The notes under the pieces are model-generated. The model had not been told where the DNA came from and did no database searches. It saw only the letters and a program-made list of their open reading frames with translations. A program made the position numbers and the translations under genes. From contig NZ_CP051155.1 in NCBI RefSeq assembly GCF_012277275.1, positions 2,604,001 through 2,668,000 on the forward strand: 64,000 nucleotides of DNA. The letters are read 5' to 3'. Source of the stretch: Gephyromycinifex aptenodytis. Lineage in GTDB: Bacteria > Actinomycetota > Actinomycetes > Actinomycetales > Dermatophilaceae. Position 1 is the stretch's first letter. Every line of letters starts with the position of its first letter. Below are positions 4,369 through 53,957 of this stretch, one piece after another.

Positions 4369-4439
4369 GCGTTCGGGGCCGATGAATACCCCCATGCGCC
4401 TAAGTGAGCACCCGATGGTCAAGGTGAGGTCTTTGCACT

Positions 4440-4469: not shown

Positions 4470-4473
4470 GGAT

Positions 4474-5217: not shown

Positions 5218-5229
5218 GCAGGAGCAACA

Positions 5230-31230: not shown

Positions 31231-31240
31231 GTCGACAACC

Positions 31241-31666: not shown

Positions 31667-31749
31667 CGGGTCGTCACTCCTTGTTCTGGGCTTGCGAGAG
31701 TCTGAGCGGTTGGAGCGGTTGCCCGCGCCGTTGTGGTTGGGTCATCGCC

Positions 31750-32106
31750 TCAACGCATGGTGCGACCCACGTTGTGGGAACCGTGGTGAGCCTGGCGGCC
31801 TTCGGAGCTCCACACCCCTGCTCTGCGAAGCGGTTCGATATGCACGATGACGGCGCTGTCATCGAAGACCGTGGACACCGCAGCCGCGATCGCCGCGATG
31901 TGGGCCGGCTTGTGGTTGCCGGCCGTCTGATCCTGGGCCTGATCCTGGGCCTGGGCAGGCGTCGCTGAGACGGCCGCGGCCTTGACGGCCGCCGCGTGAT
32001 CTGACTGGCGACCGAGCAGGCCCACGAGGCCGCTGATGACGACCGCGACGAGCATGGAGACGACCAGCACGATGATCAGGACAGTAAACGTCATGCTGTA
32101 GTACAT
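31750..32106 (-). CDS. mmdD: OadG-like small membrane subunit (delta subunit)
   Basis: 118 residues: one N-terminal membrane helix (about residues 7-30), an Ala/Gln-rich linker and a C-terminal segment with HIAAIAAAVSTVFDDSAVIVHIEP, then WSSEGRQAHHGSHNVG. This is the usual OadG/MmdD layout. The subunit tethers the soluble carboxyltransferase to the membrane beta subunit. It lies between the carboxyltransferase and biotin-carrier genes. Confidence 0.8.
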   Translation of the reverse strand: MYYSMTFTVLIIVLVVSMLVAVVISGLVGLLGRQSDHAAAVKAAAVSATPAQAQDQAQDQTAGNHKPAHIAAIAAAVSTVFDDSAVIVHIEPLRRAGVWSSEGRQAHHGSHNVGRTMR

Positions 32107-32139
32107 CGGCTCACCTGCTTTCCTGAGCGTGATGCGGGC

Positions 32140-33681
32140 TCACAGCGGAATGTTTCCGTGCTTCTTCGCGGGCCGCAGCTCGCGCTTGCTGAGCGTCTTG
32201 CGCAGGCTCAGCGCCAGCGCAGCTCGGGTCTCGGAGGGGTCGATGACGTCGGTGATGTAGCCGCGTGCTGCCGAGCGGTAGGGGGTGGCGTGCTCCTCGC
32301 GGTAGCGCTGCACGAGTTCCACCCGCTTTGCCTCTGGGTCCTCGGCCTCCTGCAGCTCGCGCTTGTACAGGATGTTCGCCGCGCCTGCCCCGCCCATCAC
32401 CGCGATTTCAGCGTTCGGCCAGGCGTAGACGTAGTCGGTGCCCATCTCTTTGCTGCACATGGCTAGATAGGAACCGCCGTAAGCCTTGCGCAGGATGACG
32501 GTCAACTTCGGCACCGTGCCCGAGGCGTAGGCGAACAGCATCTTGGCGCCGTGGCGGATGATGCCGCCGCGTTCCTGTTCGATGCCGGGCAAGAAGCCGG
32601 GGACGTCCACCAGGGTGACGAGGGGGATGTTGAAGGCGTTGCAGAACCGGATGAACCGGGCGCCCTTGTCCGAGGCGTCGATGTCTAGGGCCCCCGCCAG
32701 GTGGGTCGGCTGGTTGGCGATGATGCCCACAACCATGCCTTCGATCCGTGCGAAGCCGACGATGAGGTTCTGGGCGAACTGGGCCTGGACCTCCAGGAGG
32801 TAGCCGTTGTCGACAATGCGGGTGATGACGGCCCGCACATCCATCGGCGTCGTGGGGTCGTCTGGGACGAGGCCGTTCATGCCTTCGTCGCGGCCCAGAC
32901 GTAGGTCGGCGACCAGGTCGTGGGGCGGGTCGTCGGTGTTGTTGGGCGGCAGGAACTCCAGGAGCGCCTTCACGATGCGGATGGCGTCGTCGTCGTCTTC
33001 GGCTAGGAAGTGCACGTTGCCGCTGACACTGGCGTGCATCTGTGCGCCGCCGATTTCTTCCATCGTCGTCTGTCGACCGGTGACGGACTTGATCACGTCG
33101 GGCCCGGTGATGAACATGTGGGCGTTCTGCTTGGTCATGATGATGAAGTCCATGAGCGCGGGGGAGTATGCAGCGCCCCCGGCGCACGGGCCGCAGATGA
33201 CGGCGATCTGCGGGACCACGCCCGACATGAGCACGTTGTGGTAGAAGACTTTTCCGTAGCCGGAGAGGGCGTCGACGCCCTCTTGGATGCGCGCGCCAGC
33301 CGACTCCTGGAAGGCCACCAGCGGCACCCCGACCCGGGTGGCGGTCTTCATGGTGTCGATGATCTTCTTGGCGTGCATCTCACCCAGGGAACCTGCCGCG
33401 ACCGTGGCGTCCTGGGCGAAGGCTGCGACCAGCTGCCCCTTGACGTAACCGGTTCCGGTGACGACGCCGTCAGCGGGGAGCTCTTTGTCGCCGAGTTCCA
33501 CGGAGCGGTGATGGACGTGCAGCCCGGATTCTTGGAAGGTGCTGCGCTGGAAAAGACGGTCGAGTCGCTGCCGCGCGGTCAGCAGGCCTCGCTCGCGTCG
33601 CTTGAGCACGGCTGCTTCGCCGCCTCCGGCCTCAGCTTCGAGTCGCCTTCGTCTAAGTTCGTCGCGATCGTTCTGCGGCAT
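32140..33681 (-). CDS. mmdA: Methylmalonyl-CoA carboxyltransferase/decarboxylase alpha subunit
   Basis: The ATG at 33681, preceded by a GGGGAGAG stretch, gives 513 residues. The open frame runs to 33990, but the extension is low complexity. This is a carboxyltransferase of the propionyl-CoA carboxylase beta family: VPLVAFQESAGARIQEG, CGPCAGGAAYSPALMDFIIM, TVILRKAYGGSYLAMCSKEMG and AVMGGAGAANILYKREL. Together with MmdB, MmdC and MmdD it forms a Na+-pumping methylmalonyl-CoA decarboxylase, converting (S)-methylmalonyl-CoA to propionyl-CoA. The substrate (methylmalonyl- rather than glutaconyl-CoA) is inferred from the family resemblance. Confidence 0.87.
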   Translation of the reverse strand: MPQNDRDELRRRRLEAEAGGGEAAVLKRRERGLLTARQRLDRLFQRSTFQESGLHVHHRSVELGDKELPADGVVTGTGYVKGQLVAAFAQDATVAAGSLGEMHAKKIIDTMKTATRVGVPLVAFQESAGARIQEGVDALSGYGKVFYHNVLMSGVVPQIAVICGPCAGGAAYSPALMDFIIMTKQNAHMFITGPDVIKSVTGRQTTMEEIGGAQMHASVSGNVHFLAEDDDDAIRIVKALLEFLPPNNTDDPPHDLVADLRLGRDEGMNGLVPDDPTTPMDVRAVITRIVDNGYLLEVQAQFAQNLIVGFARIEGMVVGIIANQPTHLAGALDIDASDKGARFIRFCNAFNIPLVTLVDVPGFLPGIEQERGGIIRHGAKMLFAYASGTVPKLTVILRKAYGGSYLAMCSKEMGTDYVYAWPNAEIAVMGGAGAANILYKRELQEAEDPEAKRVELVQRYREEHATPYRSAARGYITDVIDPSETRAALALSLRKTLSKRELRPAKKHGNIPL

Positions 33682-34019
33682 TGCTCTCTCCCCTCGCAGA
33701 GGCGCACGACTCATGAACGACCGATGTGCGGCGTTGCACGGCCTGGCGCTGGTCTGAATTCGACGATGACTGCTCAGCATCCACCGTACTGCCTCGCTCG
33801 GAGCATCCTTCATCCGGGACTTTGGGCCCCCGCTGCGGCAAGGACGGGGCGCGGCTGCGCCGGCGCACGGGCCGTTCGAATAGCAGAGGGGGCGTCGGGT
33901 CCCCGGTTTCAGCATTCTGAACAGCGGCGATACCGTCCCGGCGGATGAGGCTCCGGCGGGGCTAGGCTCCGAGGAGTTCGCCGCTGCCATGATGCGGCGT
34001 CACCTGACAGGAGAAGCAG
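33682..34019. other. Divergent intergenic region between mmdA and the molbindin gene
   Basis: 338 bases. Open frames continue on the minus strand as an upstream extension of mmdA, but without the expected bias. It should hold the promoters of both directions. AGGAG (about 34010-34014) is the ribosome site for the molbindin. No clear dyad found. Confidence 0.4.
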
Positions 34020-35111: not shown

Positions 35112-36197
35112 TCAGCGGACTCCCGTCATGACGAAGTTCGCTGAGGTGACGTCGCTGTCGGCGACACGCAGCCGGTAGGTGACTGTGCCGGCCACGACCG
35201 GGACGAAGGTGACGACACCTCGACCGCTGCCTCCGACCTGGCCAAACCCTGCGTCGTGCCAGGTGCGGCCACTGAGGCGTTCCAGTCGCAGACCCGTCCA
35301 CAAGGGAAGCAGCGTCGGTCTGGTCCACACCGCAACTTCCTGACCCAGGCGCACCCTGGCGGGGGCGTTGAGGGGGATCGGGGTGCTCCACGGGTGGGGG
35401 GTGGTCAGCGTCGCCAGGTGTACCGGCCGGTTGCCGGTGTCGCGGGCCGAGGAGGTGACGCGCAGGCAATGTTCGGTCATCACAGGTGGGGCGTCGCCGA
35501 TAGCGCTGCGGTGGCGGTTGGTGACCAGCACCGAGAACCGGCCGCGGGCGTCGGTGCGGGTGGGGACTCCAGCGTCGGGGACACCGCACTCCTTGCCCCG
35601 TGCGACGAGCAGGCGCACTCGCGGAAGGGGCGCGCCTGAGGTGGTGCGGACCTGACCGCTGACCCGGTAGGCGCGCTGGCTCAACCCGACGCGGGTGCGC
35701 TTATCCATGGAGAGGACCGGGGTGTCTGTCGCCGTCACCTGGATAGAAAGACCCGGAGAGAATCCATGCGGGTAGCTAGACCATGGGCAGCCGTCGTTGC
35801 CATTGGTGCTGAGGCAGTTATGCACGGCGCCGAAGTGCAGCATGCGGGAGGGGCCGGTGATGCGGGCGACTCCTTTCCATGTTGTGAGGTCGCCCTTGGT
35901 CGAGACCTTCTTCAGCGGTATGAGTGGGCCTTCCATCGTGGGATACACCCACTCCGACAGGGTCATATAGCCATCGCCGGGGTGCTGATACTCGCCGGGA
36001 AGAGGCCTGGTGGTCATGGTGATGGTCACCGGGGTGGTCTGCAGACCGTGCACCCTCACCTCGGAGCGGCTCGCCGAGATCTGCTCGACGATGAAGGATT
36101 CGTCAGTGTAGAAGTCATCCGCTCGGGCAGGGGCTGCGGTGATCGTGCCAGTGAGGACAGCAGCGACCACGGCGGCCGCGAGACGGGGGAAGCGCAT
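35112..36197 (-). CDS. Secreted protein of unknown function, Ig-like domains
   Basis: 361 residues. A classical signal peptide (MRFPRLAAAVVAAVLTGTITAAPARA) ends near residue 26. The mature protein is beta-rich and shows repeat-like modules with YRVSGQVRT, the strand-rich segment RGRFSVLVTNRH and a C-terminal VTYRLRVADSDVTSANFVMTG. These resemble actinobacterial exported Ig-like or bacterial-surface repeats. Two Cys pairs may form disulfides. There is no anchoring signal. A frameshifted copy of the last domain lies immediately downstream. Confidence 0.68.
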   Translation of the reverse strand: MRFPRLAAAVVAAVLTGTITAAPARADDFYTDESFIVEQISASRSEVRVHGLQTTPVTITMTTRPLPGEYQHPGDGYMTLSEWVYPTMEGPLIPLKKVSTKGDLTTWKGVARITGPSRMLHFGAVHNCLSTNGNDGCPWSSYPHGFSPGLSIQVTATDTPVLSMDKRTRVGLSQRAYRVSGQVRTTSGAPLPRVRLLVARGKECGVPDAGVPTRTDARGRFSVLVTNRHRSAIGDAPPVMTEHCLRVTSSARDTGNRPVHLATLTTPHPWSTPIPLNAPARVRLGQEVAVWTRPTLLPLWTGLRLERLSGRTWHDAGFGQVGGSGRGVVTFVPVVAGTVTYRLRVADSDVTSANFVMTGVR

Positions 36198-40665: not shown

Positions 40666-43600
40666 ATGTCGGCGCCCAAAGAATCCCCCTGGTTCCTCAA
40701 CCCGCAGCCGCGCTGGGAGGCGACCTGGCGTCTCATCGGTTTCCCGCACGGCGGAGGCGGTCCGCACGCCTTTCGGGAGTGGCCCGGGGTCCTGCACGAA
40801 CACGTCGAGATGCTCGCGGTGCATCTGCCGGGGCGCGGCAGTCGCTTGCACGAGCCGCCCGTGTCCGACATGGACGAGCTCGTCACCGGCATCGTGGCGG
40901 CGATGACGGACTGCTTCGACAAGCCTTTTGCCTTCGTCGGGCACAGCGTCGGGGCCCTGGTCGCCTACGAAACGGCGCGCCGACTGGGCGAGCTGGGATT
41001 GCCGACACCGTTGCGCTTGTTCGCCTCTGCCCATCATGCCCCGCACGCGGTCGCCGCGCCGGAACCGATGTACCAACTGCCCGACGAAGACCTTATCGAC
41101 GTGGTGGGGAACCTGGGTCTGGTGCCCCAGGAGGCGCTGGCCGACCCGGAGCTGCTCGCTCTCATCCTGCCGCCGTTGCGCGCGGACTTCGCCCTGTCTG
41201 AGACCTACCGCGCGCCCGAGCGCTCAACGGCGCTGCCGTGCCCGATCACTGCGCTCGGCGGCACCCACGACCCGCTGTTGAGCCCCGATGACCTGCAGGA
41301 ATGGCAGGCGTACAGCGCAGAGGGTTTCGCGGTGCGCACCTTTGAGGGCGACCACTTCTACACCACTACGCACCTGGCGCAGCTGGGCGAGGCGATCGCG
41401 CAGGATGTCGCTGGCGACATCGCCGCGCTGCCGCCGTCGATCCTTGCCGGCGCTGAGGCCGACTATCCGCGCACCGCCTGCCTGCACGAGCTGTTCCGAG
41501 CCCAAGCCGCCCAGAGCCCGGGCAGCCTCGCGCTCGTGGACGGGGCGGACCGCTTCACCTTCCAGGAGCTGGACAGCGCAACCGATCTGCTGGCTCGAGA
41601 GTTGCAGGGCCGCGGCGTGCAGGTCGACAGCCTCGTCGGGATCTACCTGCCGACCAGCGCCGACTTCGTCGCCGGCTATCTGGGTGCGCTCAAGGCGGGC
41701 GGCGCGTACATGCCGCTGGACCTGACGCTGCCACCTGCGGCGCTGGCCGAAGTGCTGCAGGTCGCCGACCCGGTCGCGATCATCACCGATGACGAGCACG
41801 CTGGCGGGCTGCCGCGCAGCTGGCACGAGCGGGGGGCGGTCGTGCGGTTGGGGCCGGGGTGGCAGGAGCGGTTGGGGGCCACGGACCTGCCGGAGCTGGA
41901 CGCGGGTGCTGACAGCGGGCGGCGCCGACTTCCCGGTCCCGACAGCCTCGCGTACTGCGTCATGTCTTCCGGTACGACGGGCGTCCCCAAGGGGATCATC
42001 TGCCCGCATCGCGGCGCCGTGAACTCCTATTCGTGGCGGTTGCGGCACCTGCCCTACCAGGGTGAGGAGCGGGAGGCCTGCAATGTCTTCTTCGTGTGGG
42101 AGGTGCTGCGCCCCATGCTGGCCGGGCGCACCGCCTATGTGATCCCCGACGAGGTCATCTTCGACCCCGCTCGGCTCGTGGCTTATCTGCGGGACAACGC
42201 GATCACGCGGGTGCTGTTCACGCCGTCGCTGCTGGACACGGTCTTGTCGACCCCCGGTCTTGATCTCGAGTCGGCCTTCGCGCACCTGCGCATCCTCTAC
42301 CTCAACGGCGAAGTGGTCCCCACCGCGCTGCAGCAGCGGTTCACCCGCAGGTTCCCCGACATCGCCCTGGTCAACGACTACAGCATCTCCGAGACCCACG
42401 ATGTGTGCACGAGCGACCTGAGCGAGCTGGATGCGCGCATCACCCCGAAGTTCGCGCCCGTGGGTACCCCGATGGACAACGTGCGCATCGTTCTGCTCGA
42501 TGAGGCCAGGCGGCCCGTCCCGTGGGGTTTCGTCGGCGAGATCTACGTCGGTGGGGACTCCCTGGCCCGTGGCTACCTGGCCCAGCCGGAGATGACCGCG
42601 CAGCGCTTCATCCCCGACCCGGTACGCGGCGATGGGTCCGTGTTGTTCCGCACCGGGGACGCGGGGCGGTTCCTGCCCGATGGTCGCCTGGAGATTCACG
42701 GCCGGATCGCGTTCATGATCAAGCTGCGCGGCTACAGCATCGTGCCGGGCGCCGTGGAGGCCGCCCTGCTCAGCCACCCCGAGGTGGCGGCCGCGTTCGT
42801 CACCACGATCGACGACCCGGAGACCGGCCAACCCGAGCACCTCGTGGCCTACGTCGTTCCCGGCGGTGCCCCGCAGGACGAAGCTGAACTCGTCGCGGCG
42901 CTGCGGTCGCACCTGAAGGACCGGTTGCCGCCGTACGCGGTGCCCTCCTACATCCTGGCGATGCAGAAGCTGCCGCTATCCGGTACGGGCAAGCTGAACC
43001 GGCGGGCGTTACCCGACCCGCGCAAACGCCGCCAGGTGGGTGCCGCGTCGCGAACCGGCGGCGCTGGTCGGTCGGCGCCTGCTCAGCCCGGTGCGCAGGC
43101 TCAGCAACTGGAACGATTCATCCTCTCGGTGTGGGAGCAGGTGCTCGACAGCGACGGCCTGGACCCGGAGAGCAACTTCTTCGACGTCGGCGGGCATTCG
43201 CTGGCTGCGGCGGCCGTGTGTGCGCACCTGCGTGAGCACGATCTGGACGTTTCGGTCGTGGACGTCTTCCAGTACCCGAGCGCTCGCCTGTTGGCGCGCC
43301 ACCTCACCCCGGCCGGGGAGGGCGCGCCAACGTCGGCGCCGATGTGGCAACCCGGTCGCCAGAGCGAGGAGCCGATCGCGATCGTCGGGTTGGCCTGCCG
43401 GTTCCCCGGCGCGCCCGATGCGCAGACCTTCTGGGAGAACCTGCGCGACGGGGTCGGTTCGATCCGCGAACTGAGCACGCACGAGCTGGCCGAACGTGGG
43501 GTCCCTGAAGAGATCTACGCGGGCCCGGACTATCGGCGCATCGGCGCGATCCTGGATGACGTCGAGGCGTTCGATCCGGCGTTTTGGGGTCTCAGCCGCA

Positions 43601-46600
43601 AAGAGGCGCTGCTGATGGACCCCCAACATCGACTCTTCCTCGAATGCGCCTGGCACGCGTTGGAGAACGCCGGTCATGCCCCGCGCAGTGACGGTGCCCG
43701 CACCGGGGTGTTCGGCGGCACTTTCCTGCCGACCTATCTGCTGCATCACCTGCACGGGGGTGGACTGCTCGATCCTACGGACCCGATGCAGGCGCACCTG
43801 ACCGAGATCGGCAACGACAAGGATTACGTGGCGACTCGGGTATCGCACCTGCTTAACCTGCAAGGGCCGAGCCTGGCGATCCAGACCTCCTGCTCGACTT
43901 CGTTGGTGACGGTCGCGACGGCCTGCCAGGCGTTGCGGGCCGGGCAGTGCGACACGGCGTTGGCGGGGGCCAGCAGCATCACCTTCCCGCAGGCCGGTTA
44001 CCAGTACGTCGAGGGGCACATCAGCAGCAGCGACGGGCATGTGCGTCCTTTCGACGCGAACGCCTCCGGCACGATCCTGGGGGACGGCGTCGGTGTGGTC
44101 GTGCTCAAACGCCTCTCCGATGCCCTCGACGCCGGTGACAACGTGCTCGCTCTCATCACCGGGTTCGCTACGAACAACGACGGCGCGCTCAAGGCGGGCT
44201 ACTCCGCGCCCAGCGTCGCCGGACAGTCGCAGGTGGTCGCTGCCGCGCACGAGATGGCGGGCGCCGACCCCGAGACCTTCAGCTACCTGGAGTGCCACGG
44301 CACCGGCACCCTGATCGGGGACCCCATCGAGGTGCGCGCGCTCACCGAGGTCTTCCGGCGCACCACCGACCGGCGCGGATTCTGCGCCCTCGGCTCGGTC
44401 AAGGGCGGCATCGGGCACAGCAATATCGCTGCCGGGATGGCCGGACTCATCAAGACCGTTCTGGCGCTGCAGCACCGGCAGATCCCGCCGGTCGTCGACT
44501 TTGAGACGCCCAACCCTGGCTTGGAGCTGCAGAGCAGCCCGTTCTACATCGCGGACGAGTTGCGGCCGTGGGAGGCGCCGCCGGGCAGCCCCCGCCGTGC
44601 CGGGGTCTCGTGTTTCGGCATCGGGGGCACGAACGCCCACCTGGTGGTGGAGGAGTTCGACCCGCAGACGGCCGGCGGCATCGGTGTCGCCGGTGCCGCC
44701 CAGGATGCTCAGGGCGCGGCCGAAGTCGACGGTTCGGGCGGGCAACCCGGTCAGTCCGCGCACCTTTTCGTGATGTCGGCGCGGAGCGCTACCTCGCTGG
44801 GCGCCACCCGCGACGCCCTCGTGGCTGCGCTGAAACCTTCCGCGCCGGACGCATCGCCGTTGGACCTGGCCGCGGCCGCGCACACCCTGGCTCGCGGCCG
44901 CGAGCACTTCGAGTATCGGCTGAGCGCGACGGGGAGCGACCCGAGCGCGGTGCAGGCTTCGCTGGCTGGCGCGAAGGGACGCCAGGTCGGGGCGCAGGAG
45001 CGGGCCGCCGCCGCCCGGATCGTCTTCATGTTCCCCGGCCAGGGGGCGCAGTACCCGGCGATGGGTGCCGGGCTGTACGCAGACGTACCGGAGTTCGCCC
45101 GCCACTACGACGAGTGCGCCGACATCCTCGCCGCCGAACACGACATCGACCTACGGGCTGTCGCCTTCGCCGACCCAGCAGCACCGGACCCTGCGCCGGA
45201 CGCGCCGGCGCAGGATGAGTTCTCGCGCGCGTACTACCTGCAACCGGCGCTGTTCGCGATGGAGTACGCGCTCGCGGCCACCCTGATGGACTGGGGTGTG
45301 CGCCCGGCCGCGCTGGTGGGGCACAGCCTCGGCGAGTACGTCGCTGCGACGTTGGCGGGGGTTCTGCAACTGCGTGACGCGTTGGCGCTGGTCCAGGCAC
45401 GCGCGCACGCCATGGAGGAGGCCGGACCGGGAGCGATGCTGGCCGTCAAACTCGGGGTCGATGAGGCACGCGCCCTGGTGGCCGACGCGGACGACATCGA
45501 CCTGGCCGTCATCAACTCCCCTCGGGATGTGGTGTTCTCGGGCCGGGTGGAGGCCGTCGAGCGGCTCGCCGCGCAACTGGCCGAAGCCGGCATCGCCGCG
45601 CAGCTCTTGCACACGAGCCGGGCGTTCCACTCGATGATGATGCAGGAGGCAGCTGCCCGCGTCGGCGCTGCAGCGGCCACGCTGCAGCTGAACCCGCCGC
45701 AGATTCCGCTGGTTTCGAACCTGACCGGGCAGTGGCTGACCAACGAGCAAGCGCTGGATCCGACCTACTGGTCGCGGCATCTACGGGGTGAGGTGCGGTT
45801 CGCCGATGACGTCGCCGCCCTGCTGGAGGCAGGCCCGGCGGTCTACCTCGAATTGGGCCCGGGGCGGACCCTGAGCGGGTTGCTCACCTCGATCGCGGCG
45901 GAGGGCACGGGGGAGGCCAGCGCCAACGGCGCCGAAGGTGGGCCACCCCCGCTGGCGGTGCCGTTGGGCCGGCACCCGTTGCGCACCGACGCCGGTGACG
46001 CGCAGGTACTGCTTGAGGGTCTCGGACGGCTGTGGGAGGCCGGTGTCCCGATCGACTGGGAGGCGTTCTACGCCTCCCGGTCCCGGCGCCGGGTCCCGTT
46101 GCCGGGCTACTCCTTCGAGCGGGTGCGTTGCTGGCCGACCGATCCCGGTGGTGGCGCCCTACCCGGCGGTGGCAGCAGCGGAACTGCTGCAGCTGCACCG
46201 GCCGACAGCAAAATGCCGCTGGAGCGCTGGTTCTACCTGCCGTCGTGGCGGCGCACCCTGCCGCCGGTGCTCAACCCTGCGGAACCGAGCAGGCGAAGCG
46301 GGCAGGATCCCGCGCTGCCGCCGCGCTGGCTGGTCTTCGTACCGGAGTCAGGGCCTGGCGCCCGACTGGGCGCGAGCCTGATCGCTGCGCTCAATAGCCG
46401 TGGTGACGACGTGGTGTGTGTCGAACCCGACCTTGATCGCGGGCATGAGGATCCCATCTGTTTCCTGGAGCAGGACCGGGCGCGGATCGCCTGCTCGGCG
46501 GCCGGTCACGAGGCGTTGCTGCGCGCTTTGGATGAGCAGGGGCGGCGCCCAGATCGCATCGTGCACCTGTGGTCCCTGGCCGCGTCGCCGCAGGAGCCGC

Positions 46601-48069
46601 GTCGGCCGCGCGCCGCGCTGAATGTGACGCAGCTGGCGGTCGCCCTGACCCGGGTGGCCTTCGCGGAACCAGTTCAGCTGTGGATCGTTGCAGCGGGGGC
46701 GGTGCAGGTCGACGGTGAACCCGTCGACCCGCTCGCAAGTCCGCTGCTGGGCCCGGCGCTGGTCGTCGCCCAGGAGAACCCTGCCGTGGCGTGCCATGTC
46801 ATCGACGTGGGTCTGGAGCCGGTGCACAACGAACCGGACGACGATCTGGGCGAACTTGCCGACCCGCTGCTGCGGGAGTGCACGGCGGCCGAACCAGACG
46901 AAGCATTCATCGTCTCCTATCGCGGCGGTCGCCGCTGGGTGCCCGCCTACGAACCGGTCACCGTGCCGAGCGGGCCCTCGCGGATCCGCCCAGGCGGGGT
47001 CTACCTGATCACCGGCGGGCTGGGCCGGATCGGGCGCACCTTGGCCGAGCACCTGCTCGCCGCCGAAGCCACGGTGGTGCTCACCACGAGGGCTCCGGTG
47101 ACGGACGAGGGTGGTATCGCTGCCGAGCGGGCCGGCGACGCCGACCTCTCGAGCACCGCTGAGTTCCTCACCGGGTGTCGGGAGCGCGGGGGGAAGGTGT
47201 TCCTCGTTCAGGCTGACGCTAGCTACGACGGCGACCTGGAGCGTGCCGTCCAGCACACGATCAAGCGCCACGGGCGTCTCGACGGCATCTTCCACGCGGC
47301 GGGACTGGCTCAACTCACGTACCTCAGTGAGGTCGACGAGGCCCTCATCGAGCGGGAGTTCGCGCCCAAGGTGGCCGGGCTGCTCGAACTCGACCGGGCT
47401 GTGGCAGTGGCCGCCGGCGCCGGTGCGGCGCCGGAGTTCGTCGTCGTGTTCTCCTCAATCGCGGGCACACTCGGGGGGCTGGCGATGTCGGCGTACATGG
47501 GCGCCAACCGGTTCATGGATGCGTTCGTGCAGGCCGACCCTCGACGGCACGGGGTGGACTGGTTCTCGATCGCCTGGGATGACTGGGACTTCGAGTATTC
47601 GACGCAGCAGATCGAGGCGTACACGGCCAGTGGCGCCGACAAGTTCGCGATGAGTCCCGAGCAGGGGCTGACGGTCCTAGAACGGATTCTGGCGTTTGGT
47701 GTTCCGGGGCAACTGTTGGTTTCGACCCGTCCGCTGGAGCCTCGGCTTCGGCAGTGGGTGGACCAGCCCGCCCCGAGCCTAGCGGCCCCACCTGAGGGTG
47801 AGCCGGGCGAAACGGCGGGCGAGAGTGGCCAGCCGGGAGGTTCGGACCTGCACGCTCGCCTCATCGGCGTCTACCGGGCCGTGCTGGGAGTTGAGCAGGT
47901 CGACGTGGACGACAATTTTTTCGATCTGGGCGGTGACAGCTTGCTGGCGGCCCAGATCCTGTCCCAGTTGCGTTCGACGCTGGGTCTATCCGGTCAGATC
48001 CGCCTTCAAGACGTGTTCACCTACCCCTCGGTGGCGGCCCTGGCCCGTTACGTGCAGGACCTCGTCTAG
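40666..48069 (+). CDS. Hybrid NRPS-PKS megasynthase, TE-A-PCP-KS-AT-KR-ACP
   Basis: The ATG at 40666 with GGAG six bases upstream gives 2467 residues. Domains in order: thioesterase (about 15-255, GHSVG near 93); adenylation (268-785, SSGTTGVPKG near 434); peptidyl carrier (810-882, GGHSL, Ser 845); ketosynthase (902-1330, Cys 1076, with ECHGTG and GHSNIAAG His); acyltransferase (1451-1745, GHSLGEY; RAFHS near 1653 suggests malonyl); pseudo-KR region (1850-2100); ketoreductase (2111-2310, GGLGRIG, Tyr 2277); acyl carrier (2392-2465, GGDSL, Ser 2425). There is no condensation, dehydratase or C-terminal release domain. Expected logic: activate an acid or amino acid, extend once with malonyl, reduce the ketone, release by the N-terminal TE. 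Product unknown; no tailoring genes or PPTase nearby. Confidence 0.9.
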   Translation: MSAPKESPWFLNPQPRWEATWRLIGFPHGGGGPHAFREWPGVLHEHVEMLAVHLPGRGSRLHEPPVSDMDELVTGIVAAMTDCFDKPFAFVGHSVGALVAYETARRLGELGLPTPLRLFASAHHAPHAVAAPEPMYQLPDEDLIDVVGNLGLVPQEALADPELLALILPPLRADFALSETYRAPERSTALPCPITALGGTHDPLLSPDDLQEWQAYSAEGFAVRTFEGDHFYTTTHLAQLGEAIAQDVAGDIAALPPSILAGAEADYPRTACLHELFRAQAAQSPGSLALVDGADRFTFQELDSATDLLARELQGRGVQVDSLVGIYLPTSADFVAGYLGALKAGGAYMPLDLTLPPAALAEVLQVADPVAIITDDEHAGGLPRSWHERGAVVRLGPGWQERLGATDLPELDAGADSGRRRLPGPDSLAYCVMSSGTTGVPKGIICPHRGAVNSYSWRLRHLPYQGEEREACNVFFVWEVLRPMLAGRTAYVIPDEVIFDPARLVAYLRDNAITRVLFTPSLLDTVLSTPGLDLESAFAHLRILYLNGEVVPTALQQRFTRRFPDIALVNDYSISETHDVCTSDLSELDARITPKFAPVGTPMDNVRIVLLDEARRPVPWGFVGEIYVGGDSLARGYLAQPEMTAQRFIPDPVRGDGSVLFRTGDAGRFLPDGRLEIHGRIAFMIKLRGYSIVPGAVEAALLSHPEVAAAFVTTIDDPETGQPEHLVAYVVPGGAPQDEAELVAALRSHLKDRLPPYAVPSYILAMQKLPLSGTGKLNRRALPDPRKRRQVGAASRTGGAGRSAPAQPGAQAQQLERFILSVWEQVLDSDGLDPESNFFDVGGHSLAAAAVCAHLREHDLDVSVVDVFQYPSARLLARHLTPAGEGAPTSAPMWQPGRQSEEPIAIVGLACRFPGAPDAQTFWENLRDGVGSIRELSTHELAERGVPEEIYAGPDYRRIGAILDDVEAFDPAFWGLSRKEALLMDPQHRLFLECAWHALENAGHAPRSDGARTGVFGGTFLPTYLLHHLHGGGLLDPTDPMQAHLTEIGNDKDYVATRVSHLLNLQGPSLAIQTSCSTSLVTVATACQALRAGQCDTALAGASSITFPQAGYQYVEGHISSSDGHVRPFDANASGTILGDGVGVVVLKRLSDALDAGDNVLALITGFATNNDGALKAGYSAPSVAGQSQVVAAAHEMAGADPETFSYLECHGTGTLIGDPIEVRALTEVFRRTTDRRGFCALGSVKGGIGHSNIAAGMAGLIKTVLALQHRQIPPVVDFETPNPGLELQSSPFYIADELRPWEAPPGSPRRAGVSCFGIGGTNAHLVVEEFDPQTAGGIGVAGAAQDAQGAAEVDGSGGQPGQSAHLFVMSARSATSLGATRDALVAALKPSAPDASPLDLAAAAHTLARGREHFEYRLSATGSDPSAVQASLAGAKGRQVGAQERAAAARIVFMFPGQGAQYPAMGAGLYADVPEFARHYDECADILAAEHDIDLRAVAFADPAAPDPAPDAPAQDEFSRAYYLQPALFAMEYALAATLMDWGVRPAALVGHSLGEYVAATLAGVLQLRDALALVQARAHAMEEAGPGAMLAVKLGVDEARALVADADDIDLAVINSPRDVVFSGRVEAVERLAAQLAEAGIAAQLLHTSRAFHSMMMQEAAARVGAAAATLQLNPPQIPLVSNLTGQWLTNEQALDPTYWSRHLRGEVRFADDVAALLEAGPAVYLELGPGRTLSGLLTSIAAEGTGEASANGAEGGPPPLAVPLGRHPLRTDAGDAQVLLEGLGRLWEAGVPIDWEAFYASRSRRRVPLPGYSFERVRCWPTDPGGGALPGGGSSGTAAAAPADSKMPLERWFYLPSWRRTLPPVLNPAEPSRRSGQDPALPPRWLVFVPESGPGARLGASLIAALNSRGDDVVCVEPDLDRGHEDPICFLEQDRARIACSAAGHEALLRALDEQGRRPDRIVHLWSLAASPQEPRRPRAALNVTQLAVALTRVAFAEPVQLWIVAAGAVQVDGEPVDPLASPLLGPALVVAQENPAVACHVIDVGLEPVHNEPDDDLGELADPLLRECTAAEPDEAFIVSYRGGRRWVPAYEPVTVPSGPSRIRPGGVYLITGGLGRIGRTLAEHLLAAEATVVLTTRAPVTDEGGIAAERAGDADLSSTAEFLTGCRERGGKVFLVQADASYDGDLERAVQHTIKRHGRLDGIFHAAGLAQLTYLSEVDEALIEREFAPKVAGLLELDRAVAVAAGAGAAPEFVVVFSSIAGTLGGLAMSAYMGANRFMDAFVQADPRRHGVDWFSIAWDDWDFEYSTQQIEAYTASGADKFAMSPEQGLTVLERILAFGVPGQLLVSTRPLEPRLRQWVDQPAPSLAAPPEGEPGETAGESGQPGGSDLHARLIGVYRAVLGVEQVDVDDNFFDLGGDSLLAAQILSQLRSTLGLSGQIRLQDVFTYPSVAALARYVQDLV

Positions 48070-48159: not shown

Positions 48160-48936
48160 TCAGAGCACCGGCACCCGCCGCCGGATGTCAGCCACCGTCG
48201 ACAGGTCGGCTTCGGCCAGGAGGAGTCCCTCTTCGTGGCCGAGGCGGGCCCGGACCCGGCCCAGCGGGTCGATGAGTACCGAGCGGCCGATCCCCAGCGG
48301 CTGGGCTCCTTGCGGGGCAGTCCAGGCCATATCGCAGGCCAGCAGGTAGGCCTGGGCGTCCATGGCTCTGGCGCGGGTGAGCACATCCCACTGTTCGGCC
48401 TTGCCGGGGCCTTCACCCCAGGACGCCGGCACGAGCACGAGCTCCGCCCCGGCGCGACCCAACGCGGTGAACTGGTCAGCGAACCGCAGGTCATAGCAGG
48501 TGGCGACGCCAACGTGGGCTCCACCGATGAGCGTCGTGACGATCTGGTCGCCGGGAGCGACCGTGTCGGATTCGCGGCTGCCGAACGCGTCGTACAGGTG
48601 GATCTTGTCGTAGCTGCACTCGCCGTCCGGGCCGGTGACCAGCAAGGTGTTGTGCACCCGCCCGTCCTCGGCGGGGGTGAACATGCCGACCACCACGGTG
48701 ATCCCGTGTCGTTGGGCGCTTGCCCGCACACCCTGCGCGAACGGGCCGTCGAGCCCCTGTGCGACGGCGCCTAGGTCGGTACCGAAGCAAGCCATCGTCG
48801 CCTCGGGGAAGACGACGATCTGGGTGCCACCCTCGGCTGCGCGCTGGGTGTACGCGGTCACCGCGTGCAGGTTCTGTTCCGGGTCGTCCGTGGCCGATAT
48901 CTGGGCGGCAGCGATACGCATGCACGGTGAGTTCAT
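48160..48936 (-). CDS. Carbon-nitrogen hydrolase (nitrilase superfamily)
   Basis: 258 residues. The Glu-Lys-Cys triad is in place: VVFPEATM, YDKIHLYDAFG and GVATCYDLRFAD. The spacing resembles omega-amidase/Nit and deaminated-glutathione-amidase branches. Enzymes of this class hydrolyse amides or nitriles in the cytoplasm. AGGAGA seven bases before the ATG supports the start. It is divergent from a GntR gene by only 26 bases and belongs to a group with an MHS symporter and a DUF2848 protein, likely degrading a small carboxylate amide. Confidence 0.87.
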   Translation of the reverse strand: MNSPCMRIAAAQISATDDPEQNLHAVTAYTQRAAEGGTQIVVFPEATMACFGTDLGAVAQGLDGPFAQGVRASAQRHGITVVVGMFTPAEDGRVHNTLLVTGPDGECSYDKIHLYDAFGSRESDTVAPGDQIVTTLIGGAHVGVATCYDLRFADQFTALGRAGAELVLVPASWGEGPGKAEQWDVLTRARAMDAQAYLLACDMAWTAPQGAQPLGIGRSVLIDPLGRVRARLGHEEGLLLAEADLSTVADIRRRVPVL

Positions 48937-48962
48937 CTGGGTTCTCCTGTAGTAAGAGGGGT

Positions 48963-49592
48963 ATGCCGAATGTGGGGAGTGGACGCGACCGCGCTTACGA
49001 GTACCTGCGCGCCGAGTTGCTCTCTGAGCCTGACCTGCTCGGCACGTTCATCAACGAACAAGACGTCGCCACCGCGGTGGGGGTGTCGCGCACGCCGGTG
49101 CGCGAGGCCCTGCTCATGCTCGCAGCCCAGCACCTCGTGCAACTGGTGCCGCATCGCGGGGCGTTCGTGCCTACTTTGACGGGAACTCAAGCCGGCGATG
49201 TTTTCACGGCCCGAGAGATGATCGAAAAGTGGTGCGTGCGCGAAGTCATCGCTAACGACCGCGCGCCGGTCGAGGCCATGCGCGCCCGTCTTGAGGAACA
49301 GCGGGCTCACGTCAGCGACGCGAAAGCGTTCATTGAGGCCGACCGGGATTTTCACACGCTCCTCATCTCTGCGGCTCAAAACACGGTACTCGCCGACATG
49401 TATGAGTCGCTGCGGGCACGGCACGTGCTTATCGGGTTGGCGGCGGTGCGCCACCCGAATGCTCGCCTCACAGACGTGCTCGACGAGCACGGCGCAATCG
49501 TGGACGCCCTCGCACAACGCGACGTGGGCGCCGTCGATGCCGCCATCGAGGCGCACCTGCTGGCTACTCGCCGTCGCCTGCTGGGCTCCTGA
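48963..49592 (+). CDS. GntR-family regulator, FCD subfamily
   Basis: 209 residues: an N-terminal winged helix (NEQDVATAVGVSRTPVREALLML, then HRGAFVPTL) and an all-helical FCD ligand domain with the metal-site pattern DRDFHTLLISAAQN and the closing DEHGAIVDALAQRDVGAVDAAIEAHL. FadR-type regulators sense carboxylates. The GTATAC-type site at 51044-51052 between the symporter and DUF2848 genes fits an FCD-GntR operator, so this protein probably controls that divergent pair. Confidence 0.88.
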   Translation: MPNVGSGRDRAYEYLRAELLSEPDLLGTFINEQDVATAVGVSRTPVREALLMLAAQHLVQLVPHRGAFVPTLTGTQAGDVFTAREMIEKWCVREVIANDRAPVEAMRARLEEQRAHVSDAKAFIEADRDFHTLLISAAQNTVLADMYESLRARHVLIGLAAVRHPNARLTDVLDEHGAIVDALAQRDVGAVDAAIEAHLLATRRRLLGS

Positions 49593-49614
49593 GCGGCCGG
49601 CGCTGCCCTCGATG

Positions 49615-49631
49615 GCGGCACCCGGTGCCGC
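49615..49631. terminator. Short bidirectional hairpin between convergent genes
   Basis: GCGGCAC (49615-49621) pairs with GTGCCGC (49625-49631) around a 3-base loop, between the GntR and MHS symporter stop codons. Confidence 0.5.
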
Positions 49632-49637
49632 GTTGAC

Positions 49638-51008
49638 TCAGGGCACCTGTCCTGCGGTGTCGTCCTCGCTGGAACCACTGAGAAGGACTTGGTCGGCGTC
49701 GTCGATGACGGTTTTGCTCATGGCTAGGCCGATGAGCGTGATGAGGCACGCGCCTGCCACCCACGCTCCGATCAACCAACTGTTCTCCATCTGCTTGTGG
49801 AACAGAGCGAACATGACGGGGGCGATACCGCCGCCGAAGACACCCGCGAAGGTGTAGGCCAGCGAGGAGCCCGTGTAACGCAGCCGGGCGTGGAACTGCT
49901 CGGCGATGTGGGCGGCCTGCGGGGCGTACATGAAGCAGTGGATAACCAGGCCGATAATCACCCCGGCCAGGGCCAGAACGAAGTTCCGGTTCTGTAGCAC
50001 CGCCAGGAACACGAAGATCCAGATCGCAGCCGCGACGGCAGCCATGCCGTACAGCTTTTTGCGCTCGATGCGGTCAGAGACCCACCCGGCCAGCGGCATG
50101 CAGAAAATCTGGATGAACGCGGCACTCATGGTGCACGTCAACGCTTGGCCGTAGGTGAGTTTGTTGGGTCCCGACTGTAGCCAGGTGATGACGTAGATCG
50201 CGAAGAAGGCGTAGAGCACATCAGGACCGAAGCGAACGAGGATGGCGCCTACGAGCGCGCGCCCCTGCGTGCGGAACACCTCGGTGATCGGTGCTTTGGG
50301 CGCGTCGCCCTGTTCAGCAAGACGCTGGAAGACAGGGGTTTCTTCCAGCTTGTGGCGGATCCACAGACCGAAGCCGACGAGGATCAGTGACAGGCCGAAC
50401 GCTAGTCGCCAACCCCACGCCAGGAACGTCTCCTGGCTCATGCTGGCGGTCAGGACGAGGACCAGGCTGTTGGCCATGAAGCTGCCGAGCGGGACGCCGG
50501 TCTGGGCGGCTGAGGCCCACAGGCCGCGTGTGCCGGGCCGGGCGAACTCGCTGGACAGGAGTACCGCGCCACCCCACTCGCCACCAACGCCGACGCCTTG
50601 CAGGAATCGCATCGTGACCAGCAGGATCGGTGCCCAGATCCCTGCGCTGGCGTAGGTGGGCAGGATTCCGATGGCGGCGGTAGCCAGGCCGATCAGCAGC
50701 AGGGTCCAGACGAGGACCTTTTTGCGGCCGATGACATCTCCCAGGCGGCCGAAAAAGATGCCACCGATGGGCCGAGCGATATAACCGGCGCCGTACGTCA
50801 TGAAGGCTTTGATGGTGTCCATCGCGGGGTCGGAACCGTCGAAGAACAGCTTGCTGAACACGGTGCCGGTGACGGCGCCGAACAGGGCGAAGTCGTACCA
50901 CTCCAGCGACGTCCCCGAGAGGCTTGCGACGAAGGCTTTGTGCAGGCTGCGACGTTCCTCGTCGGTGTGCGGCGGCGCGGTGGCAGCAGCGGGCGAGGTT
51001 CTGGGCAC
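49638..51008 (-). CDS. MFS transporter, metabolite:H+ symporter (MHS) family
   Basis: The GTG at 51008, with AAAGGAG seven bases before it, gives 456 residues and twelve membrane helices. The MHS motifs are visible: SLSGTSLEWYDFALFG at the N-terminus, GRLGDVIGRKKVLVWTLL in the first cytoplasmic loop and RFLQGVGVGGEWGGAVLL. This subgroup takes up small organic acids or osmolytes (for example citrate, alpha-ketoglutarate, shikimate or proline/betaine). Divergent from the DUF2848 gene with a GntR-type operator between. Confidence 0.88.
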   Translation of the reverse strand: MPRTSPAAATAPPHTDEERRSLHKAFVASLSGTSLEWYDFALFGAVTGTVFSKLFFDGSDPAMDTIKAFMTYGAGYIARPIGGIFFGRLGDVIGRKKVLVWTLLLIGLATAAIGILPTYASAGIWAPILLVTMRFLQGVGVGGEWGGAVLLSSEFARPGTRGLWASAAQTGVPLGSFMANSLVLVLTASMSQETFLAWGWRLAFGLSLILVGFGLWIRHKLEETPVFQRLAEQGDAPKAPITEVFRTQGRALVGAILVRFGPDVLYAFFAIYVITWLQSGPNKLTYGQALTCTMSAAFIQIFCMPLAGWVSDRIERKKLYGMAAVAAAIWIFVFLAVLQNRNFVLALAGVIIGLVIHCFMYAPQAAHIAEQFHARLRYTGSSLAYTFAGVFGGGIAPVMFALFHKQMENSWLIGAWVAGACLITLIGLAMSKTVIDDADQVLLSGSSEDDTAGQVP

Positions 51009-51043
51009 GTCACGCTCCTTTCCTAGGGGTGGGGTAATACTCG

Positions 51044-51052
51044 TTGTATACA
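51044..51052. promoter_or_regulatory. Candidate FCD-GntR operator
   Basis: TTGTATACA, centred on the palindrome GTATAC and flanked by TCG/CGA arms (about 51041-51058). It lies 36 bases before the symporter start and 52 before the DUF2848 start. The shape matches sites described for FCD-type GntR regulators. Confidence 0.6.
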
Positions 51053-51103
51053 CGACGAGAAGGCAATAGCCTGACGACGTCATTCGCGGTCGAAGGAGGG
51101 GTA

Positions 51104-51802
51104 ATGGGCGTTTTGCGTTTCCGTGTAGTAGGTGCCGATCACGCGGCAGAGACGGTGGATGTTGCCGTTCGGCACGTGTTCAACGGTGGCTACGCCGGTC
51201 GCGACACCGCGCAGGTGCAGCACCACGTCGACGAGTTGGCGAAGCTGGGCGTGCCCGCCCCTACTCGCATTCCGACCCTGTACCCGCTGTCGGAGTACCT
51301 GGCGGTGCAGGGGAATCGGGTTGCGGTTCCGCACGGTCGCACCTCTGGAGAGGCTGAGTGGGCCCTGGTGGTGCCGCAGGATGCGCGAACCGCGCACGAT
51401 TACCTCGTCACGGCGGCCTGTGATCACACCGACCGGGCGCTGGAGGTGCATGGTGTGGCGTGGTCCAAGCAGTCCGCCCCGGATTTTCTCGGTGAGGTGG
51501 CCTGGCGCTGGGGGGAGGTCGCGCAGCGGTTCGATTCATTCACGTTGCGCGCGTGGGTGAATGGGGATGAACTCATTCAGGACGGCAGCGCGGCACAGTT
51601 GCTCTCGCCGGCGTACTGGATTGAGCACATGGAATCCGAGGGGCTGTTGCAGCCGGGCACCGTAGTTATGAGCGGAACGATCCCCATGCTCGAGGGCGTC
51701 AACCAGTTCGCGTCGTCATGGCGGGTGGAATTGAGCGACGGCCAAGGCAACGTCAGTGAGGTCTCCTATCGGGTCGAGGAGCTTCCCGCCGCCTGGGACT
51801 GA
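51104..51802 (+). CDS. DUF2848 protein
   Basis: The ATG at 51104, preceded by GAAGGAGG, gives 232 residues. Typical stretches of this uncharacterised family are AGRDTAQVQHHVDELAKLGVPAP, CDHTDRALEVHGVAWSKQSAP and FDSFTLRAWV. The closing GTVVMSGTIPMLEGVNQF suggests similarity to fumarylacetoacetate-hydrolase folds, but no function is proven. It is divergent from an MHS symporter under a shared operator-like site, so it probably works on the transported compound. A palindromic repeat cluster follows. Confidence 0.75.
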   Translation: MGVLRFRVVGADHAAETVDVAVRHVFNGGYAGRDTAQVQHHVDELAKLGVPAPTRIPTLYPLSEYLAVQGNRVAVPHGRTSGEAEWALVVPQDARTAHDYLVTAACDHTDRALEVHGVAWSKQSAPDFLGEVAWRWGEVAQRFDSFTLRAWVNGDELIQDGSAAQLLSPAYWIEHMESEGLLQPGTVVMSGTIPMLEGVNQFASSWRVELSDGQGNVSEVSYRVEELPAAWD

Positions 51803-51827
51803 CCCTCCTTCACGCCCCATCCGCCCC

Positions 51828-51901
51828 GCGAGCCGTCACTTCGAAGTGACGGCTCGCCGTGTTTCGTGCGCGAGCCGTCACTGTTCATTGACGGCTCGCG
51901 C
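51828..51901. repeat. Palindromic repeat cluster B (GCGAGCCGTCAC family)
   Basis: Two units. The first is a perfect 30-base palindrome (51828-51857) with half-site GCGAGCCGTCACTTC. The second is a hairpin GCGCGAGCCGTCA (51868-51880) with TGACGGCTCGCGC (51889-51901). The core is identical to cluster A at 21971-22066, almost 30 kb away. Again it lies at a gene end, between the convergent DUF2848 and deaminase-like genes, where it could terminate both transcripts. Confidence 0.85.
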
Positions 51902-51903
51902 GG

Positions 51904-52356
51904 TTACGGGGGCGGGTTGGCGCACCAGCGTGCGTCGATCTCGTCTGGGAAGGCGCGCATCCAGTAGTCGGGGAGTACCTCGTGCAGGCGCTTCCACACG
52001 ATGCTCGTGGGGTCGTGTGGGTTGGCCACGGCAACGAGGACATCAGGGCCGTGCACGGCGAGGCGTTCCCGGCAGAGGCCGCACGGACTCAGCACGACGG
52101 TGCGTCCTGAAGGCTGGCGGTGCAAACAGACCGAGGCGACGATCGCTTGGTTCAATCGGTACGCCGCACAGAATGGTTCCGTCTCGTGACACACCTCGAC
52201 GGCAGCGACTGCGACTGCGGGTGCCGTGCCGGTCAGGATCGTGCCGTCCGCCAGCAGCATCGCCGCTGCGCCCTGCTCGTCGTTCACGTCCGGGAACCGG
52301 ATGCGCAGGAGCTCTTCGCACGCAGCGACGGTGGCCTCGAGCAGAGCAGGATCCAT
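51904..52356 (-). CDS. Cytidine/blasticidin-type deaminase-fold protein, active-site variant
   Basis: 150 residues from the ATG at 52356; a GTG at 52470 preceded by GGGAGG would add 38 Pro-rich residues. The second zinc motif is present (SPCGLCRERL). Where the first motif should read CAE, this protein has FCAAYRLNQA, with Ala in place of the catalytic Glu. Glutamates in the preceding CHETEP could substitute. It belongs to the cytidine/blasticidin-S deaminase fold; activity is doubtful. Transcribed towards repeat cluster B. Confidence 0.72.
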   Translation of the reverse strand: MDPALLEATVAACEELLRIRFPDVNDEQGAAAMLLADGTILTGTAPAVAVAAVEVCHETEPFCAAYRLNQAIVASVCLHRQPSGRTVVLSPCGLCRERLAVHGPDVLVAVANPHDPTSIVWKRLHEVLPDYWMRAFPDEIDARWCANPPP

Positions 52357-52580
52357 CCGGCAACTGTGCCAGGTGCGGGCGTTGAACCGCCACGGGGGGT
52401 TCGGCCGCGGCGCCGACAAGGGCGTTCGTGGGGTACTCGGCGGCGTGAACACCTCGTCGTCAAGGTGCACAGGCACCTCCCACCTGGCGCCGTGAAGCGA
52501 AGTCGCGACGTCTCAGCCCTGGCACGGTCGTGGTGTCTATGTCTACGGTGGCGCAGACCGAACGGATGAGAGAGACACCT

Positions 52581-53957
52581 ATGAGCGAATATCGCACCGA
52601 GAACCCGGCCACCGGCGAGGTCCTGGAGGAGTTCCCCACCCTTGACGACGCAGGCGTGCAGGCAGCCCTGGACCGGGTGGGTGAGGCGTTCACCTCCTGG
52701 CGAGCCACCGAGCCGGCGCAGCGGGCCAAGGTCCTTTCCAAGGTCGCCGACATCTATGAGGAGCGATCCCAGGAACTAGCCGAGATCATCGCCCGCGAGA
52801 TGGGCAAGCCGGTTCGGCAGGGTCTGGGGGAGTTGGCCCTGGTGACGAGCATCTACCGCTATTACGCCGAGCATGGCGTGGCAGCCCTCACCGATGAGGT
52901 GCTCAACGTGCCTGGCGGGGGTTCATCCATCGTGCGCCGCGACCCTGTGGGTGCCCTGCTGGGGATCATGCCGTGGAACTTCCCCTACTACCAGGTGGCG
53001 CGGTTCGCGGCGCCCAACCTCATGTTGGGCAACACGATCCTGCTCAAGCACGCCCCCATCTGCGCCAAGTCGGCGCTGGTGATGGAGGAGATCTTCCGCG
53101 ACGCCGGGCTCCCGGAGGGTGCCTACGTGAACGTGTTCGTCACCAACGACCAGGCGGCCGACATCATCGCCGATCCGCGGATTCAGGGCGTCTCGCTCAC
53201 CGGCAGCGAACGGGCGGGTGCCGCAGTGGCGGAGGTCGCCGGGCGCAACCTGAAGAAGTGCGTGCTGGAACTGGGTGGTTCCGACGCGATGATCGTGCTG
53301 GATTCCCCGGATGTGGCCAAGACGGCGAAGATCGCTGCCGCTGTCCGGCTGGGCAACGCGGGCCAGGCCTGCAACTCGCCCAAGCGGATGTTGGTGGCCG
53401 AGGACCTGTACGACGAATTCGTCGCAGGGGTTACTGCAGCATTCGAGAAGGCGGCCCCCGGCGATCCGCTCGCCGAGGGCACCCGGATGGGGCCGCTGTC
53501 GTCCCAGGGGGCGCTGGACACGCTGCTGGAGCAGGTGCAGGACGCCAAGGACAAGGGCGTCACTGTGCTCACCGGTGGTGACCGCGTGCCGGGTGCGGGG
53601 GCATACATGCAGCCCACCGTGCTCACCGACGTCACCCCGCAGATGCGCGCCTACACCGAGGAACTGTTCGGACCGGTCGCGATGATCTTCAAGATCTCCT
53701 CTGCGCAGGAGGCCATCGAGTTCGCCAACTCCAGCCCGTACGGACTGTCCGGCTCGGTGTGGACCCAAGACCCCGAACTGGCGCAGTCCGTCGCGGACCG
53801 TCTGGACGTGGGCATGGCCTACATCAACGAGCACGGCACGACGATGGCCGAGCTGCCGTTCGGGGGCGTCAAGCGCTCCGGGTACGGCCGCGAGCTCGCT
53901 TCGTACGGTATGGACGAGTTCGCCAACAAGAAACTGATCCGCACCGCCGGACGCTGA
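52581..53957 (+). CDS. gabD: Aldehyde dehydrogenase (succinate-semialdehyde dehydrogenase-like)
   Basis: The ATG at 52581 begins MSEYRTENPATGEVLEEF, a natural start; the frame opens 17 codons earlier. 458 residues. Signature parts: IMPWNFPYYQVARFAAPNLM (cofactor site), the general-base Glu in VLELGGSDAMIVL, the nucleophile Cys in NAGQACNSPKRMLV and LPFGGVKRSGYGREL near the end. The sequence fits NADP-dependent succinate-semialdehyde dehydrogenase, completing GABA breakdown to succinate, although aldehyde dehydrogenases of other specificity look similar. A strong terminator follows. Confidence 0.86.
   Translation: MSEYRTENPATGEVLEEFPTLDDAGVQAALDRVGEAFTSWRATEPAQRAKVLSKVADIYEERSQELAEIIAREMGKPVRQGLGELALVTSIYRYYAEHGVAALTDEVLNVPGGGSSIVRRDPVGALLGIMPWNFPYYQVARFAAPNLMLGNTILLKHAPICAKSALVMEEIFRDAGLPEGAYVNVFVTNDQAADIIADPRIQGVSLTGSERAGAAVAEVAGRNLKKCVLELGGSDAMIVLDSPDVAKTAKIAAAVRLGNAGQACNSPKRMLVAEDLYDEFVAGVTAAFEKAAPGDPLAEGTRMGPLSSQGALDTLLEQVQDAKDKGVTVLTGGDRVPGAGAYMQPTVLTDVTPQMRAYTEELFGPVAMIFKISSAQEAIEFANSSPYGLSGSVWTQDPELAQSVADRLDVGMAYINEHGTTMAELPFGGVKRSGYGRELASYGMDEFANKKLIRTAGR

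Follow-up and report, generated by a model that had tools for sequence, protein, structure and literature searches.

A stand-alone NRPS-PKS hybrid protein of Gephyromycinifex aptenodytis as a proposed carnitine synthase

In modular NRPS-PKS hybrids with the domain order A-PCP-KS-AT-KR-ACP, a build familiar from antibiotic synthesis, the ketosynthase (KS) elongates a starter bound to the PCP, and in ordinary NRPS adenylation (A) domains the Asp of the FD motif holds the alpha-amine of the substrate. The eukaryotic trimethyllysine route to carnitine is a multi-step pathway that ends in a hydroxylase. In bacteria, carnitine catabolism proceeds via a carnitine 3-dehydrogenase and then a keto-acid cleavage enzyme; bacteria are not known to possess a biosynthetic route of the kind proposed below. 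As indicated in PMC8085414, eukaryotes make carnitine from trimethyllysine, and the fungal A-T-R-R proteins (ATRR) are presented as glycine betaine reductases in PMC11050029. Among the papers listed by a literature search of titles and abstract openings, with most subscription journals and all bioRxiv preprints outside its scope, none deals with an NRPS-PKS carnitine synthase, so that an earlier report is possible; in the portion of PMC10320115 available to that search, carnitine comes up only in connection with the acyltransferase domain of a fungal PKS. The NRPS-PKS hybrid kind is thus known, while the substrate, product and metabolic place inferred here are new relative to the literature searched.

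The window, i.e., the whole stretch of 64,000 nucleotides analysed here, belongs to the single 3.45 Mb contig of the Gephyromycinifex aptenodytis genome. A single, uninterrupted frame on its forward strand (40654/40666-48069) encodes, from the ATG at 40666, a protein of 2467 aa whose domain order, TE-A-PCP-KS-AT-KR-ACP, was established from the frame, Pfam matches and a residue check over the whole gene (40666..48069), which we propose to encode a carnitine synthase. All Pfam matches listed here score over their cut-offs. The N-terminal thioesterase (TE) domain (40729..41397, residues 22-244, Ser94), which would release the product, precedes the A domain with its C-terminal part (41494..42993; AMP-binding 277-638 and AMP-binding C-domain 697-776), proposed to activate glycine betaine and supported by Pfam, a structural model and a pocket alignment. 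Two PP-binding stretches were matched: the PCP, with the codon of its phosphopantetheine serine, Ser845, at 43198..43200, and the C-terminal acyl carrier domain (ACP; 47857..48054, Ser2425). Between them lie the KS (43369..44502; ketoacyl-synthase 902-1153 and 1161-1279; Cys1076), the acyltransferase (AT; 45022..45861; Acyl_transf_1 1453-1732), with Ser1554 in GHSLGEY and a further motif RAFH, both of which we take to be of the malonyl type, and the ketoreductase (KR; 46996..47586; residues 2111-2307), with Tyr2277 and Asn2281. Every domain other than the A domain rests on Pfam and the residue check, with a motif alignment in addition for the TE, KS, AT and KR, and all of these catalytic positions were verified.

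The first-pass annotation had described seven domains in one chain with their named active-site residues intact and no condensation domain, and both statements are borne out: Pfam and the residue check agree on the former, and the 14 Pfam families listed do not include one for a condensation domain. Its reading of an A-PCP pair feeding a KS, with one malonyl extension and one ketoreduction to give a 3-hydroxy acid that has two carbons more than its starter, likewise fits the domains. With A, carrier, KS, AT, KR and carrier in one chain, the protein has the composition of an NRPS-PKS hybrid and shares the domain logic and catalytic motifs of modular hybrids, including a KS that extends a PCP-bound starter. 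It differs from them in that its TE is N-terminal, it lacks a condensation domain and it is encoded by one gene, and also in its proposed non-amino-acid starter and its proposed product of primary metabolism. No match to the whole architecture was found among the best 25 of 160 NCBIfam families or the best 60 of 263 PDB sequences, the top NCBIfam match being PKS_plus_SDR, below its cut-off. It is the sole protein of its kind in the genome, where the other 15 matches are limited to adenylation or carrier parts.

Sequence comparison leads us to propose, with good confidence, that this protein is a stand-alone carnitine synthase converting glycine betaine and malonyl-CoA into carnitine. The A domain would use ATP to convert betaine to betainyl-AMP and load it as betainyl-S-PCP, while the AT would load malonate on the C-terminal ACP as malonyl-S-ACP. 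The KS would then join the betainyl group and malonate to form 4-trimethylammonio-3-oxobutanoyl-ACP (3-dehydrocarnitinyl-ACP), which the KR would reduce with NADPH to carnitinyl-ACP, and the N-terminal TE would release free carnitine, perhaps in the L form. Among KR marks, an LDD motif indicates the B type and a Trp the A type; the KR of the synthase has neither. The missing LDD argues against a B-type enzyme, and an A-type ketoreductase would, owing to flipped naming priorities, produce L-(R)-carnitine; since the A-type Trp is also absent, the L form is no more than a possible product. The carnitine formed may serve the single carnitine acyltransferase of the genome and/or act as a compatible solute. 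The proposed route would have its end product in common with eukaryotic carnitine biosynthesis, which takes many steps from trimethyllysine, whereas here one megaenzyme would use betaine and malonyl-CoA. It would also run in the chemically reverse sense of bacterial carnitine catabolism, joining betaine to a two-carbon unit before reduction, but as a carrier-bound assembly line driven by malonate decarboxylation.

Pattern-based scanning of a single genome for each species, which finds close relatives only, yielded 15 related loci; in nine of them the synthase architecture is present, either in full or truncated at a contig end. Ten core members, the window and L011-L019, are considered here; besides the window they come from Piscicoccus (L011), Neomegalonema (L012), Mixta (L013), Arcobacter (L014), two Alphaproteobacteria assemblies (L015, L019), Filomicrobium (L016, L018) and Desulfobacteraceae (L017). 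The relatives with the strongest context evidence are 41-49% identical to the synthase of the window over the best segment. A second group, set apart by a long branch, consists of the six rhizobial plasmid loci L033-L038. In the Piscicoccus copy (L011:5596-20709) the synthase stands between an SRP54-type and a GlnD-type gene, which suggests insertion by gene transfer, and on the short contig of the Mixta copy (L013:715-6422) the neighbouring genes are of the Tn3-type transposase, resolvase and integrase-core kinds. In the 2098 aa copy of L019 (L019:5268-11564), the alignment has a gap over the AT motifs, either a true loss or an assembly error, with KS, KR and ACP present. The thioesterase part is out of frame with the rest in L017:9977-17069 and in L037; L038 lacks the KR motifs, and L033 has Phe at the KR tyrosine position.

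The gene neighbourhoods of the relatives provide much of the functional context. The genomic links that a carnitine synthase should show, to betaine supply and carnitine use, were found at 6/10 core loci and in 7/10 core genomes. At those six loci, the synthase is adjoined by a gene for a betaine-forming methyltransferase, a carnitine acyltransferase or a betaine transporter. Upstream of the L015 synthase and divergent from it lie matches to glycine/sarcosine N-methyltransferase (476 bits, cut-off 350) and to sarcosine/dimethylglycine N-methyltransferase (371 bits, below the cut-off of 550), and the next gene downstream matches Choline/Carnitine O-acyltransferase (555 bits). Homologues of all three occupy equivalent places in L016 and L019, and both methyltransferase homologues are found upstream in L018, where the contig stops inside the synthase. 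By family names, the methyltransferase pair of these four loci together leads from glycine to glycine betaine. In Arcobacter (L014), an acyltransferase gene is adjacent and divergent; in Desulfobacteraceae (L017), a BCCT transporter gene lies directly downstream. The neighbour proteins of L015 and L017 gave no tblastn match at the window, L011, L012 or the short L013 contig. An Abhydrolase_3 esterase gene, possibly a candidate acylcarnitine hydrolase, follows the acyltransferase in L015 (19177-20202), L016 and L019, and another Abhydrolase_3 gene is found beside the Neomegalonema acyltransferase (L057:10009-11112).

At three of the six rhizobial loci (L034, L036 and L038), a carnitine-dehydrogenase-like gene lies within ~7 kb of the synthase. 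A carnitine dehydrogenase model is the top match in L034 and L036 and the second-ranked one in L038, in no case reaching its cut-off. The L034 synthase is also adjoined by genes for a keto-acid cleavage protein, a thioesterase and a dipeptidase; the best matches of its genes, NF005471 and NF052387, which we take to be the carnitine 3-dehydrogenase and keto-acid cleavage enzyme of carnitine catabolism, are below cut-off. Near this copy, from S. mexicanum, annotated ectoine synthase and diaminobutyrate transaminase genes were also seen (L034:11104-11502 and 3967-5238), with ectoine uptake genes on the opposite side of the synthase. An annotated phosphopantetheinyl transferase gene comes just after the synthase in L033 (22642-23319) and a few kb before it in L035 (11257-11868).

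The A domain of the window is 52-67% identical to those of eight other core members and 48% identical to that of L018. Its AlphaFold model (pLDDT 87.3, pTM 0.83) resembles ordinary adenylation enzymes, as seen in the 50 best structural matches listed. The pocket itself is unusual. In an alignment of 21 A domains from the synthase family (10 core, 5 reductase-type and 6 rhizobial), none has the FD motif with its amine-binding Asp that marks amino-acid-activating domains, as compared with nine of nine control NRPS A domains, as read from the aligned motifs. The family reads NVFFVWE or variants at this site, and CNVFFVWE (42079..42102, forward strand) in the window provides the Phe and Trp of a proposed cage. 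Because the family is five residues shorter than ordinary A domains just before the motif, the pocket position numbers rest on the motif; read from its right side, the pocket of the window is V-F-W-L-Y-N-D-D-V-K. Phe236 is kept in 21/21 members, and Trp239 in all 10 core and all 5 reductase-type but only 2/6 rhizobial members. An acid (Asp or Glu) occupies position 330 in all 21, Asp579 in the window (42400..42402, forward strand). The controls also have a Trp in the 239 column (3/9) and an acid in the 330 column (2/9). A pocket with aromatics and an acid but no Asp to bind an amine points to a quaternary ammonium group on the ligand.

The synthase A domains form one clade (support 1.000) with the A domains of L020-L024. 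These are five reductase-type proteins that all have the unusual A domain; their assemblies carry the labels Rubrobacter, Rubrobacteraceae, Desulfobacterota and Haliotispira. The four scanned with Pfam (L022 being left out) show an A-PCP-reductase architecture, and these proteins are possible candidates for bacterial glycine betaine reductases; none of the ten neighbours scanned around them is a choline or betaine gene. The fungal and nematode ATRR proteins would have in common with the synthase an A-PCP pair loading glycine betaine, as proposed for the latter, but in ATRR reduction of this betaine to choline follows, whereas the PCP of the synthase feeds a PKS module. This likeness rests on the bacterial A-PCP-reductase relatives, with their putative betaine specificity, rather than on fungal sequences. 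As for the rhizobial copies, their starter or extender may differ, given that Trp239 is lost in 4/6 and that the AT motifs of L033-L038 are altered, with GHSMSEY present and VPSHS replacing a motif of the HAFH type.

The starter could also be another betaine or methylated amine, e.g., dimethylglycine or a longer betaine, leading to a carnitine homologue. We regard this as improbable, though it fares best among the alternatives: the pocket is inferred from motifs alone, the core varies between Y, W, I and V at position 299, and position 322, Asp in 9/10 core members, is different in every reductase-type and rhizobial relative, but the methyltransferase families at four loci lead, by name, to glycine betaine, and a carnitine acyltransferase comes next downstream in the three of those loci where the contig continues. 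It is very unlikely that the protein loads an amino acid, extends it with malonate and reduces it to a statine-like or other gamma-amino-beta-hydroxy acid. Such a product, suggested by the first-pass annotation for an amino-acid starter, is permitted by the domain order and the intact catalytic residues, but the A domain, which lacks the FD motif throughout the family, leaves it unsupported, and betaine or carnitine genes adjoin six of the ten core loci; an amino-acid starter was rejected on the pocket.

Glycine betaine as starter and carnitine as product would also agree with the distribution of carnitine acyltransferases. The genome of the window has one Carn_acyltransf (PF00755) gene (C1:2584494-2586146), outside the window and ~58 kb from the synthase, scoring 371 bits against a cut-off of 22.3. 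Its best PDB matches are CPT2 (129 bits), CrAT (121 bits) and ChAT (88 bits), so that it resembles carnitine enzymes more closely than choline ones, as expected of a carnitine O-acyltransferase. The L014 enzyme matches CPT2 with 213 and ChAT with 147 bits, and the L015 enzyme CrAT with 341 and ChAT with 303 bits. A carnitine enzyme is the best PDB match for all three, and in each of them the (D/E)R(H/Y) motif retains its Arg, the residue that binds the carnitine carboxylate.

Carn_acyltransf was found in none of 14 control genomes and in 4/29 relatives, including both that carry the synthase gene, the genome of the window and G006 (chance probability 0.015, uncorrected for kinship); G006 agrees with Piscicoccus L011 in contig, position and acyltransferase match, which places the organism of the window in the Piscicoccus family; among the 27 relatives without the synthase there are two, one of them partial (1-114 of 574). 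In the alphaproteobacterial order of Filomicrobium G034, which we take to be Hyphomicrobiales, a scan of 397 genomes with the three best candidates scored per genome found the synthase in two, both being previously identified loci, and Carn_acyltransf in 12, including both carriers (chance probability 0.0008, uncorrected for kinship), against 10/395 genomes without a found synthase. Seven of the ten core genomes carry it; it is absent from Mixta, from the 1.9 Mb Desulfobacteraceae assembly and from the Filomicrobium L018 assembly, where the contig breaks off within the synthase gene. None was found in four reductase-type genomes searched (that of L020 not among them) or in five rhizobial records, which comprise plasmids and not chromosomes. 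Several points speak against the carnitine reading: the acyltransferase of the window's genome is not adjacent to the synthase, 10 of the 12 acyltransferase genomes in the order of G034 lack a synthase, and for the L015 enzyme ChAT scores above the octanoyl- and palmitoyltransferases, albeit below CrAT. That the protein makes a secondary metabolite unrelated to carnitine, its neighbourhoods being osmolyte islands, has very little probability: the gene is patchy, transposase genes lie near the Mixta and rhizobial copies and the scanned neighbours in the window are unrelated, but carnitine acyltransferase occurs in four carrier lineages (the family of the window, Neomegalonema, other Alphaproteobacteria and Arcobacter), directly beside the synthase in two of them, and is otherwise uncommon.

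At the locus of the window itself, no betaine or carnitine gene adjoins the proposed carnitine synthase. The first-pass annotation had noted the lack of an exporter or phosphopantetheinyl transferase within several kb. An MFS transporter gene does lie ~1.6 kb downstream (49638..51083, reverse strand), its nearest NCBIfam model, a metabolite/H+ symporter, being below cut-off and nothing equivalent being present at the loci used for comparison; as for the transferase, two genes of the phosphopantetheinyl-transferase family sit elsewhere in the genome. When the neighbours in the window (nitrilase-like, MFS, glucoamylase-like and 35112-36197) were compared with the other loci by tblastn, none matched at 1e-10, and they are therefore left out of the proposed system. 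The earlier suggestion that a single gene defines the whole pathway holds loosely, but the betaine and carnitine genes adjoining most core loci qualify it, and the conservation check it called for shows the gene in two of the 29 relatives, the genome of the window included. Genes for a carbon-nitrogen hydrolase, the MFS transporter, a DUF2848 protein and an aldehyde dehydrogenase (48160-53957) look like a small catabolic cluster adjoining the synthase, and carboxyl transferase and oxaloacetate-decarboxylase beta-like genes (30025-33990) likely encode a sodium-pumping decarboxylase. Betaine is probably imported from outside in this organism, since no glycine/sarcosine methyltransferase over cut-off was found in its genome, its one GMC-oxidoreductase match is weak and partial, and it has two BCCT genes.

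Altogether, these findings lead to a model, which we hold to be reasonably likely, of de novo carnitine synthesis in bacteria that depends neither on lysine nor on the eukaryotic dioxygenases, in which one assembly-line enzyme would make L-carnitine from betaine and malonyl-CoA and for which some Alphaproteobacteria would possess the complete gene set from glycine through betaine and carnitine to acylcarnitine. If true, this would constitute a second biosynthetic route to carnitine and help explain why a few bacteria have carnitine acyltransferases. It would also place assembly-line enzymology in primary or osmolyte metabolism and offer a one-gene route to carnitine from cheap precursors.
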